From NCBI GenBank assembly GCA_013822345.1, contig PNKH01000005.1:1-64000 (forward strand): a stretch of 64,000 nucleotides of DNA, given 5' to 3'. Positions within the stretch are counted from its first letter, which is position 1; each line of letters opens with the position of its first letter. The position numbers and the translations under genes were made by a program. This document shows, in pieces, positions 61,848 to 64,000 of this stretch. The notes below the pieces were generated by a model. It worked only from the letters and a program-made list of their open reading frames with translations. It made no database searches and was not told where the DNA came from. This DNA is from Isosphaera sp. GTDB lineage: Bacteria > Planctomycetota > Planctomycetia > Gemmatales > Gemmataceae.

Positions 61848-62819
61848 CTACTGCTGCTGCTGGCTCTGCTGCTGGCGGAACACCCGGTTCCGGGCCTGCT
61901 GGTTCAGCCGCTCGTTCCGCCCGCCGCCGTTCGCGGTCGCCAGCGCCGACCACGCCGGGGCGTCGGCCGGCTCCGCCAGGTCGGCCGGCACCTTGTCCGC
62001 CGGCTGAACGCCCACCGTCACCGCGATCGCCTCGTCCGCGTCCCCCTTCCACACCCCGCGGTTCGGCGGCACGTCCGAGAAGTCACGGCCGACGGCCGTC
62101 ACCACGTGGTCCGCCCCGACCCACTTGCCGTGGGTCGGGTCGAGGTTCGCCCACCCGAGGTCCGGCCCGGCCCACACCTGCACCCAGGCGTGGGTGGCGA
62201 TCTCCCCCGGCTGGTGGACGTACCCGCTGACGTACCGGGCCGGCAGCCCGCGGAGCCGGGCCGCCGCCAGGAACAGGTGGGCGATGTCCTGGCACACCCC
62301 GCTCCCCAACTCCAGCGCCTCCGACACCCGGGTGTGGGCCGCGGTCACCGCCTTCTCGTACCGCAGCCGGCTGCGCACCTCGACGGTGATCGCCTCGGCC
62401 ACCGCCAGCACCGTCGTGCAGTCTTCGAGCGGGATGTCGGCGGCGAACGCCCGGACGGCCGGGGCGAAGTCGACCTGCGGGCTGGCCCGGAGGAACTCCA
62501 GGGCGTCGACGCTCGGGGGCGCGTCCGGGACCCACGGGACGGCCGCCAGCACCTCCGGGGCGGGGGTGCGGTGGACCCGGACGCACGCCGCCGCCCGGAT
62601 CACCACCTCGCGGTGCGGGGGCGTGATGTTGAACAACTCGACCCGGTTGCCGAACCCGTCCCGGTAGGCGGTGACCGGGGCCGGCGGGGTGACCCGGAGC
62701 TTGTAACCGAGGACCGCCTGGTCGTCCTGCGACGGCGGGGCGGTCCGCACCTCGATGACGGACTCCGTCACCGGGGCCGAGTAGGTGAGCCGGGTCTCGT
62801 GGTCGATCCTTAGGAGCAT
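61848..62819 (-). CDS. Transglutaminase-like protease-fold protein
   Basis: Predicted 323 residues. N-terminal domain LLRIDHETRLTYSAPVTESV is the bacterial transglutaminase-like N-region (PF08379). The catalytic Cys is in LGSGVCQDIAHLFLAAAR near residue 174, with His in ATHAWVQVWAG near 215 and Asp in NLDPTHGKW near 230. A Gln-rich tail ends the protein. It belongs to the alpha-E / transglutaminase / ATP-grasp gene group, thought to act on peptide bonds or make amide-linked products. Its ATG lies at the end of the inverted repeat bounding the neighbouring cassette. GGAG is absent. Confidence 0.88.
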   Translation of the reverse strand: MLLRIDHETRLTYSAPVTESVIEVRTAPPSQDDQAVLGYKLRVTPPAPVTAYRDGFGNRVELFNITPPHREVVIRAAACVRVHRTPAPEVLAAVPWVPDAPPSVDALEFLRASPQVDFAPAVRAFAADIPLEDCTTVLAVAEAITVEVRSRLRYEKAVTAAHTRVSEALELGSGVCQDIAHLFLAAARLRGLPARYVSGYVHQPGEIATHAWVQVWAGPDLGWANLDPTHGKWVGADHVVTAVGRDFSDVPPNRGVWKGDADEAIAVTVGVQPADKVPADLAEPADAPAWSALATANGGGRNERLNQQARNRVFRQQQSQQQQ

Positions 62820-63359
62820 TGCCAGTTGCCCGTGGCCAGTGGCCAGTTGTTGTTGACCTCGGGACCGCGCGGGGCAGCCGTCAACCTTTGGGAGGCGGGT
62901 CGGCGACCGGGACTCGGTCGTTCTGCTCACCGATCCGGTGAAGGTACTCGTTCGAACTCGGCGCGAGCTCGTCGAGCAGCGGCTTCAAGGCCGCCACCTG
63001 GTCGGTGGTGAGGAGTTTCCGGGCGAACGCCCGCCTCAGCCAGTGCTGAGTTTCATTGAGCGACCCGCGGGCGATCTTCACGAACCGGCGGTTCTCCTGG
63101 TAGCTCCCACGGCCGTGCCCTTCCGCGATGTTCGCCCCGACGCTGCCGGCCGCCCGCACGAGTTGCTTGCCGATGGTATCCCGCTCGAAGTTCGGCCACG
63201 GGCGGACTATCTCCCAGATGGCGTCCGCCAACTGTTCGGCCCGTTGGTAGACCCGCAACTGTTGGAAGTTCGACTTCGCCATGGCGATCCCTCTCGCGGT
63301 CAATCTCTGATGTCCCCCCGCTGAAAACAACTGGCCACTGGCGACCGGCAACTGGCAAT
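62818..63359. mobile_element. Putative mobile cassette: 34-bp terminal inverted repeats flanking a four-helix-bundle gene
   Basis: Ends 62818-62851 and 63326-63359 are inverted repeats of 34 bases with 2 mismatches (outermost ATTGCCAGTTGCC). They enclose a single minus-strand gene for a four-helix-bundle protein and no transposase. AT occurs at both ends. The element ends coincide with the alpha-E stop and the transglutaminase start, so it looks inserted into a previously tight gene junction. Mobility is inferred from the ends and position; only one copy is present in the window. Confidence 0.65.
62881..63282 (-). CDS. Four-helix-bundle protein of the S23/IVP family (TIGR02436-like)
   Basis: Predicted 133 residues, fully helical. 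FQQLRVYQRAEQLADAIWEI and KQLVRAAGSVGANIAEGHGR are the family landmarks (helix 1 and helix 2 with SVxxNIAEG), followed by LNETQHWLRRAFARKL. Members were first seen in intervening sequences of bacterial 23S rRNA genes; their biochemical role is unknown. Here there is no rRNA. The gene is enclosed by 34-bp inverted repeats and lies between two genes of another system. The start has GAGAGGG about 9 bases upstream. Confidence 0.88.
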   Translation of the reverse strand: MAKSNFQQLRVYQRAEQLADAIWEIVRPWPNFERDTIGKQLVRAAGSVGANIAEGHGRGSYQENRRFVKIARGSLNETQHWLRRAFARKLLTTDQVAALKPLLDELAPSSNEYLHRIGEQNDRVPVADPPPKG

Positions 63360-64000
63360 CACGTCCGGAAGTACGCCTGGTGCACGTCCCGGCCGACGGC
63401 CGCGCACGTCTCCTGCACCCCGACCAGGAACTGGTCGACGCCGCGGCGGAACAGGTCGTCCACGTCCATGTACCGCAGCTCCGAGTCGAGCCGCCCGAGG
63501 TGCCGCTCGGCGTCCGTCCCGAACCCGCCACCCCCGGCCACGCACCGCAGCGACTCCAGGCACCGGGCCACCCCGAACCGCATGCTCCGGGGGAACTCGG
63601 CCTCCAGCAGCAGGTACCGGACCACCCCGACCGGGTCGACCCGCTCCCGGGCCTGCTTCTGGTACGCCTCGTACGCGGACGTGCCGCGGAGCAGGCTCGC
63701 CCAGTGGGCCGCCGAGAACGTCACGTCGGACCCGACCCCGGCGGGGACGAACGCGGCCGACGCGTAACAGTGGACGTTGATCACCCGGCTGAGCATGTCG
63801 ACCCGCTCCAGGTGACGGCCGACCTGGAGGAAGTGGTACGCCTCGGTCCGCGGCAGGGTGCCGTCGACCAGGGCGGCGAACAGGACGCACTCCCGGCGGA
63901 CGCGGTCGAGGAACCGGGACGGGCTGGCCGCGAACCGGGCGGCGGCGCGCGGGCTGTTCAGGAACAGGTGGAGCTTGTTCAGCTGGCTCCACGCCTCCCC
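63359..64000 (-). CDS. Alpha-E (DUF403) protein, partial
   Basis: The open frame runs to the right edge of the window without a start, giving 213 visible C-terminal residues. It matches the helical alpha-E family (EAWSQLNKLHLFL; LVDGTLPRTEAYHFLQVGRH; LERVDMLSRVINVHCY; FGVARCLESLRCVAG; LDSELRYMDVDDL). Alpha-E proteins occur with transglutaminases and atypical ATP-grasp enzymes in a proposed peptide/amide metabolism system; the ATP-grasp gene is probably to the right of the window. Its TGA begins at the end of the inverted-repeat element. Confidence 0.87.
   Translation of the reverse strand, partial: GEAWSQLNKLHLFLNSPRAAARFAASPSRFLDRVRRECVLFAALVDGTLPRTEAYHFLQVGRHLERVDMLSRVINVHCYASAAFVPAGVGSDVTFSAAHWASLLRGTSAYEAYQKQARERVDPVGVVRYLLLEAEFPRSMRFGVARCLESLRCVAGGGGFGTDAERHLGRLDSELRYMDVDDLFRRGVDQFLVGVQETCAAVGRDVHQAYFRT

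Follow-up and report, generated by a model that had tools for sequence, protein, structure and literature searches.

An S23/IVP gene enclosed by inverted heptamer arrays suggests an overlooked kind of mobile genetic element

The window, by which we mean the whole stretch of 64,000 nucleotides analysed here, contains near its end a compact element placed between two host genes. It consists of one S23/IVP-type gene and two terminal arms that together form an inverted repeat, and its arms touch the stop codon of an upstream alpha-E gene and the start codon of a downstream transglutaminase-like gene. The features are as follows:

61848..62819, minus strand: transglutaminase-like gene, host flank (domains Bact_transglu_N and Transglut_core)
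62817..62819, minus strand: ATG start codon of the downstream transglutaminase gene, touching the left arm
62818..62851, plus strand: left terminal arm, from the inverted repeat and its sequence; the 3′ arm in gene direction
62818..63359, minus strand: whole element, 542 bp, from the inverted repeat and RNA folding
62881..63282, minus strand: S23/IVP four-helix-bundle gene, 133 residues (PF05635, TIGR02436, AlphaFold2, fold match 2gsc)
63326..63359, minus strand: right terminal arm, from the inverted repeat, a heptamer array like the left one; the 5′ arm in gene direction
63359..63361, minus strand: TGA stop codon of the upstream alpha-E gene, touching the right arm
63359..64000, minus strand: alpha-E gene (Alpha-E, PF04168), host flank, truncated by the window end

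The first-pass annotation had described a 133-residue S23/IVP gene within 34-nt inverted repeats with two mismatches, free of transposase and rRNA, and our repeat search, open reading frame list and profile and Rfam searches bear this out. The arms are 34 nt long, 94% complementary despite the two mismatches and 474 nt apart, with a best arm score of 29 against at most 14 among 20 shuffles of the locus. Between them no transposase frame was found by the open reading frame list and profile search, which matched S23 as the sole gene there, and an Rfam scan of 62700-63450 gave no rRNA match and a single match below threshold (21 bits, cut-off 30). In the interior of the element and in the alpha-E and transglutaminase genes beside it, neither a reverse transcriptase nor template or variable repeats were found. 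A Y1 transposase gene is likewise absent from the element; the three listed of the genome's five Y1 matches lie on other contigs. Folded as RNA, the element is predicted to have paired arms enclosing the whole unit (MFE -276.6 kcal/mol, z -6.3, none of 100 shuffles as low). The ends do form an inverted repeat, as first claimed, but they are not one fixed 34-mer: they are tandem arrays of a TTGCCAG-type heptamer, which reads TTGCCAG, TTGCCCG, TGGCCAG, TGGCCAG and TTGTT along the plus strand at 62819-62851, and such arrays vary between loci. This heptamer structure is a feature absent from the first-pass annotation.

The assignment of the encoded protein rests on profiles and on structure. Searches that used 131 of its 133 residues matched PF05635 (E 5e-31, 107.5 bits) and TIGR02436 (E 2e-28, 98.7 bits), above the curated cut-offs of 33.8 and 24 bits, and no nuclease domain was matched by the profile searches. 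Its AlphaFold2 model has four helices at a mean pLDDT of 91.6 and shares the fold of Avd (Foldseek, probability 1.00; 8ub7, E 0.009; 4dwl, E 0.025), an accessory protein of retroelements whose assembly is five-fold. The best fold match is 2gsc (2gsc_B, TM (target) 0.88, E 1.8e-5). The closest solved structures, 2gsc and 2rld, contain five chains each, and the title of the 2gsc paper, as it appears in a reference list, speaks of an assembly of five four-helix bundles; a five-chain assembly is thus known for relatives and putative for the window protein. Genes of this family are frequent in the group, being present in 36 of 59 genomes with our own included, while one query against a phage collection gave no S23 match at E 1e-3. 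An S23 gene outside rRNA had at first been called unexpected; in this set it is the rule.

Heptamer arrays flank most of the S23 genes tested, and they do so mostly in inverted orientation. A first set of 127 loci was picked by protein match and not by flanks, and comprised 3 loci of our own genome, 29 of relatives, 15 from 26 plasmid records and the best 80 of at least 589 confirmed contig-scan matches, a selection that skews this last part toward relatives of the query. In flanks of 250 nt, with those below 120 nt dropped, the strongest self-match lag was 7 in 105 of 126 upstream and 101 of 122 downstream cases, compared with 15/122 and 17/119 in control windows 1 kb away; lag 8 was strongest in 10 flanks on each side. 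An inverted-repeat score of at least 14 was reached at 104 of 126 loci and in 22 of 1008 control pairs that combined the upstream flank of one locus with the downstream flank of another, and 20 loci of the set reach 14 in direct orientation. The second set added all other S23 matches found in the 59 genomes, which came to 57 loci once the contig-end fragment G003:C370 had been excluded and two rows of G022:C213 merged. Here matches of at least 60 bits had inverted arms in 36/41 cases, with lag 7 strongest in 30 upstream and 28 downstream flanks, and weaker matches had them in 7/16 (control, 15/342). Over all 184 loci the dominant period was 7 in 143, 8 in 18, 6 in 7, and 9 or 10 in 3, with none in 13. 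Under a stricter rule that needed 150 nt on both sides, period 7 dominated at 137 of 177 loci; of the 168 control windows, taken about 1 kb away, 18 had period 7 and 105 had no period. In the controls, too, period 7 exceeds its neighbouring periods.

By record label, the loci belong to Planctomycetota, Acidobacteriota, Pseudomonadota, Bacteroidota, Bacillota, Chloroflexota, Verrucomicrobiota, Kiritimatiellota, Lentisphaerota, Spirochaetota, Thermodesulfobacteriota, Myxococcota and two candidate phyla, and on plasmids to Cyanobacteriota and Gemmatimonadota; many of these records are bins. A few loci depart from the common pattern. At L262 and L263 the arms repeat GGGCAC with period 6, and three weak matches in planctomycete genomes (L003, L285, L289) have AT-rich units (ATTTCAG, ATTGAAA, GATTTGT). 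One S23 gene (L113:64-396) comes from a contig that bears the label Methanophagales archaeon, which could be a binning error; a period-8 array adjoins the gene on one side, and on the other the contig ends.

The family is known from intervening sequences of rRNA, with which the window element shares an S23 gene in terminal inverted repeats that form an enclosing RNA stem, but from which it differs in lying between protein genes and not in an rRNA gene. An Rfam scan of eight loci placed only one of them, L087 from Azospirillum, in rRNA. There the S23 gene lies inside 23S rRNA with heptamer arms on both sides, so that rRNA intervening sequences appear to be a branch of the same class of elements; among the loci compared, the rRNA flanks of L087 matched only L087 itself. 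The accessible part of a paper on the Coxiella intervening sequence describes heptameric direct repeats (GACAGAT) upstream of the S23 frame, which it treats as copy-number variation between strains (PMC4990558).

The window element looks like an insertion between alpha-E and transglutaminase, a reading that comes from sequence comparison. A transglutaminase search matched 41 of 45 genomes, our own included, and the junction was read in the ten best other matches. In L172, L174 and L176 an alpha-E frame, named from its C-terminal residues and not by profile, ends about 14, 24 and 33 nt upstream of transglutaminase with no S23 between, which upholds the initial statement that the operon occurs without such a gene. 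An open frame, taken as alpha-E by position, ends 4, 11 and 24 nt upstream in L177, L178 and L180 and about 70 nt upstream in L179; L173 and L175 have no such frame directly upstream. For a target-site duplication, the genomes offered no close relative with a clean empty site, and the nearest empty junctions differ in sequence. The closest transglutaminase orthologue (72%; L171, in G016) has about 200 nt at the junction, with an unrelated, non-heptameric 20-nt inverted repeat, which may be an insertion of a different kind into this junction.

Beyond this junction, S23 genes turn up at a wide range of unrelated places, most of them within ends of this kind, two points that the first-pass annotation had proposed to check. 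Among the 60 closest S23 protein pairs, 48 had no common homologous flanking frame within flanks of 1.4 to 3 kb and 12 shared one or both. The window S23 and its 72% identical paralogue in the same genome have no flanking gene in common, and in a quick S23 tree built on few columns the phyla are mixed. Because the context of S23 changes in this way, the genes have probably moved. Some S23 genes seem to occupy the same junction in several genera, which also fits descent or operon transfer. Six loci (L058, L061, L101, L112, L136, L139) have both flanking frames in common across Planctomycetes, Bacteroidetes and Lentisphaerae, read by eye as MoxR and DUF58 in L101, and this common junction reflects either repeated insertion or operon transfer. 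On cyanobacterial plasmids, S23 genes are annotated inside CRISPR-Cas operons (L075, L083, L076; cas6/cas4 twice and cas10/cmr3 once); S23 genes in cas loci were noted in 2013, according to the accessible part of PMC3936711.

The ends also occur without the gene. Our own genome holds 28 matches to CCAGTKGCCAGT compared with 4 for the reversed pattern, and about 11 sites besides the window carry inverted pairs of about 97-138 bp that lack an S23 gene; at one of them (L023) the script picked another repeat and the heptamer pair was read by eye. L037 has one arm only, and L024 is a single match within a frame. Gene-less hairpins lie at ribosomal-protein junctions (rplN/rplX in L007 and rpsM/rpsK in L022, named from translations by eye), and two more are embedded in frame in coding sequences, one matching RsgA and the other UbiD, in the latter downstream of the matched domains. 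The RsgA hairpin was considered as a candidate clean, recent insertion: at its place, the five readable of 11 same-genus orthologues have 26-43 residues without a comparable inverted repeat, and the stretch with the hairpin is missing from order-level relatives. Arms match better within a hairpin than between hairpins (0.81 vs 0.56 per nt), and the loops are barely more alike than shuffled ones (7.5 vs 6.8), averages that in both cases include the other repeat at L023; the loops therefore give no support for copying of whole hairpins.

For TTGGTCC, the unit of the second S23 gene of our genome, 34 matches were counted and none for its reversed control. The arms of that gene account for 7 of these; the others are spread over 11 further places, and of five such places looked at, four have inverted arms. 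Outside S23 flanks, triple AGTDGNN units reach a median of 32 in 13 genomes with AGTDGNN-type S23 arms, 1 in 23 genomes with other S23 arms and 0 in 23 without S23, a weak comparison over 59 genomes that ignores relatedness (p 0.03 against other arms, p 0.0009 against no S23). AGTDGNN matches also number 47 to 176 in five of the 23 genomes with other arms, where no S23 corresponds to them. Many such matches and no S23 match are also seen in G004 (32) and G029 (54). These counts are rough, because the reversed control, which is high in G004 (40, exceeding the forward count), G028 (94) and G003 (71), probably fits other heptamers.

The first-pass annotation had held that ends occurring without any S23 gene as ordinary terminator hairpins would speak against a mobile cassette. 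Gene-less ends do occur, but a terminator is plausible only at L005: among the window element and 11 gene-less copies, judged by eye, a six-T run outside the arm is present there alone, so that this copy may terminate transcription. The position of two copies inside open reading frames also disfavours terminators as a general explanation.

Taken together, the arrangement of S23 within heptamer ends suggests an overlooked kind of mobile genetic element, and on balance we favour reading the window element as a member of a class of small, widespread selfish elements, in each of which inverted arrays of a short repeat, usually of 7 nt, flank an S23 gene. An account that gives the same features a role in RNA would make the heptamer stem a processing or regulatory site in the operon mRNA and S23 an RNA-binding chaperone, in analogy to Avd in the ribonucleoprotein of diversity-generating retroelements, with spread by horizontal transfer together with the operon. 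The predicted stem that encloses the whole unit (z -6.3) would suit this account, as would the fold shared with Avd from such ribonucleoproteins (8ub7 and 4dwl), the several S23 sites that are junctions within one operon by annotation or reading, and the cutting of rRNA intervening sequences by RNase III reported in the accessible part of PMC4990558. We nevertheless consider it unlikely, since the same heptamers recur at many sites per genome, two of them inside open reading frames, and similar S23 genes stand in unrelated contexts.

The gene-less hairpins resemble MITEs and REPINs, and S23 could accordingly be mere cargo, with an unrelated transposase or reverse transcriptase acting on the ends in trans in a MITE- or REP-like manner. 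Candidate enzymes are common enough, a reverse transcriptase (RVT_1) match being present in 45 of the 59 genomes and a Y1 transposase match in 48. Against this, the RVT_1 match is missing in 8 of the 36 genomes with S23 (G024, G025, G027, G031, G032, G043, G047, G049), absences weakened by incomplete assemblies, although G047 and G049 (99% complete) are among these genomes; the S23 match of G032 is below the cut-off. Heptamer matches number 58, 61 and 73 in the RVT_1-free genomes G024, G031 and G049, and the Y1 match is missing from G008, G024 and G025, all of which have S23. As far as incomplete assemblies allow, neither enzyme therefore looks like a general need, and the case for a reverse transcriptase, and equally that for a Y1 transposase, working in trans is weakened. 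With Y1 as the transposase family covered, we regard the cargo role as improbable.

The arrays themselves are ordered with respect to the gene: they keep one polarity, the AG-rich strand reading inward on both sides. Read inward, 134 of 202 arms have AG in phase and 30 have CT, with GT in 117 and GG in 87. Within AG-phased arrays the G is the best conserved column (0.95) and positions 5 and 6 are the least conserved (0.70 and 0.73), where the phase was picked by AG itself; a phase test without that prior choice gave AG in just 8/39. Units vary between S23 loci even in one genome, since by eye five loci of G014 have five different units and the sixth, a weak match, has none. Similarity of the heptamers follows that of the proteins only weakly (rho 0.10, and nothing below 40% identity). 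A candidate conserved inner motif, GAAGACA, was present in 23 of 367 flanks and 5 of 352 controls.

Array length has its mode at 30-32 nt, with a long tail of expanded arrays, some exceeding 20 units. Among arrays of up to 6 units, those of period 7 (n=186) have a median of 31 nt and those of period 8 (n=21) one of 35 nt; the two groups differ in length (p 0.014) but not in unit number (p 0.40). When only arrays of 3-6 units are compared (n=176 and 18), the p values are 0.00025 for length and 0.89 for unit number. Both arms of each locus enter these counts, which are therefore not fully independent. As length differs between the periods and unit number does not, it is the unit number that seems conserved, at about four periods plus some 2 nt whether the period is 7 or 8. 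Period 8 was also considered as the mark of a single clade; a quick tree requires 8 changes compared with 9.8 in shuffles (6 of 500 as low), so that it is slightly clustered and no more. That the arrays are ordinary unstable simple repeats, already present where S23 cassettes insert or survive beside them, might be argued from the arrays expanded beyond 20 units and from the abundance of heptamer repeats in several groups (accessible parts of PMC4692102 and PMC4679880), but is very improbable given their inversion about the gene, their preferred polarity and unit number, the different units at the S23 loci of G014 and the closer match of arms within than between hairpins.

To return to the favoured reading of a selfish element, the most likely role of S23 is to recognise the arrays. 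Four periods plus two bases make five equally spaced dinucleotide contacts possible, and an S23 pentamer may read its own array through five such contacts, about one per subunit, as the five chains of the solved S23 proteins would suggest. This recognition would mark the two ends as a unit for movement, and the same recognition could let gene-less hairpins be copied in trans. At the RNA level the arms would form a long stem that, by analogy with rRNA intervening sequences, RNase III or a similar enzyme might cut, and such cutting would make insertion between operon genes or inside rRNA tolerable. More tentatively, and with somewhat less confidence than we would need to prefer it, we envisage a hitherto undescribed mobile class, distributed across many bacterial phyla, whose protein, a pentamer of four-helix bundles without any known nuclease, would read five equally spaced contacts in tandem arrays of 7- or 8-nt units. 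One genome could then have several unit families together with their gene-less satellites, and rRNA intervening sequences and the heptamers of Xanthomonas, Nostoc and Beggiatoaceae may be footprints of this class.

Several known systems invite comparison. S23 has the fold of Avd of diversity-generating retroelements, but no reverse transcriptase, template or variable repeat lies between its arms. Rickettsia palindromic elements are short hairpins that lie in frame inside open reading frames, as some of the gene-less copies do; to our knowledge, neither heptamer arrays nor S23 occur there. With REP/REPIN sequences and their RAYT (TnpA-REP), as described in the accessible literature and partly as generally known, the elements have in common that they are short, many-copy inverted-repeat elements with gene-less copies beside a protein gene and several families per genome; in contrast to these, they lack the tyrosine transposase, their ends are tandem heptamers and their protein is a four-helix bundle. 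Heptamer arrays also make up simple repeats known from Xanthomonas, Nostoc and Beggiatoaceae, and in Xanthomonas the accessible text reports 70 and 75 inverted pairs of GGGAATC in two genomes, with four units commonest (PMC4692102, PMC4679880). The link of these repeats to S23 is our proposal, and the accessible main text of the papers on Xanthomonas/Nostoc and Beggiatoaceae (PMC4692102, PMC4679880) makes no mention of S23 or of a four helix protein. Within the openly licensed literature, heptamers beside an S23 frame were found only in the available text of the Coxiella paper (PMC4990558), and no publication turned up that presents heptamer arrays as the general ends of S23 elements.

The accessible literature still lists S23/IVP proteins as having no known function, and the heptamer repeats reported from several bacterial groups are without an accepted explanation. 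The association of S23 with heptamers joins both puzzles in one question, namely whether an S23 pentamer binds its own array and how many units it requires. A comparison is offered by TRAP, an 11-fold ring that binds 11 triplets. If the S23 pentamer does bind its own array, this would amount to a protein-nucleic-acid code, with short units at even spacing being read by a ring, and it would also explain the small hairpins at gene junctions that annotation has overlooked.
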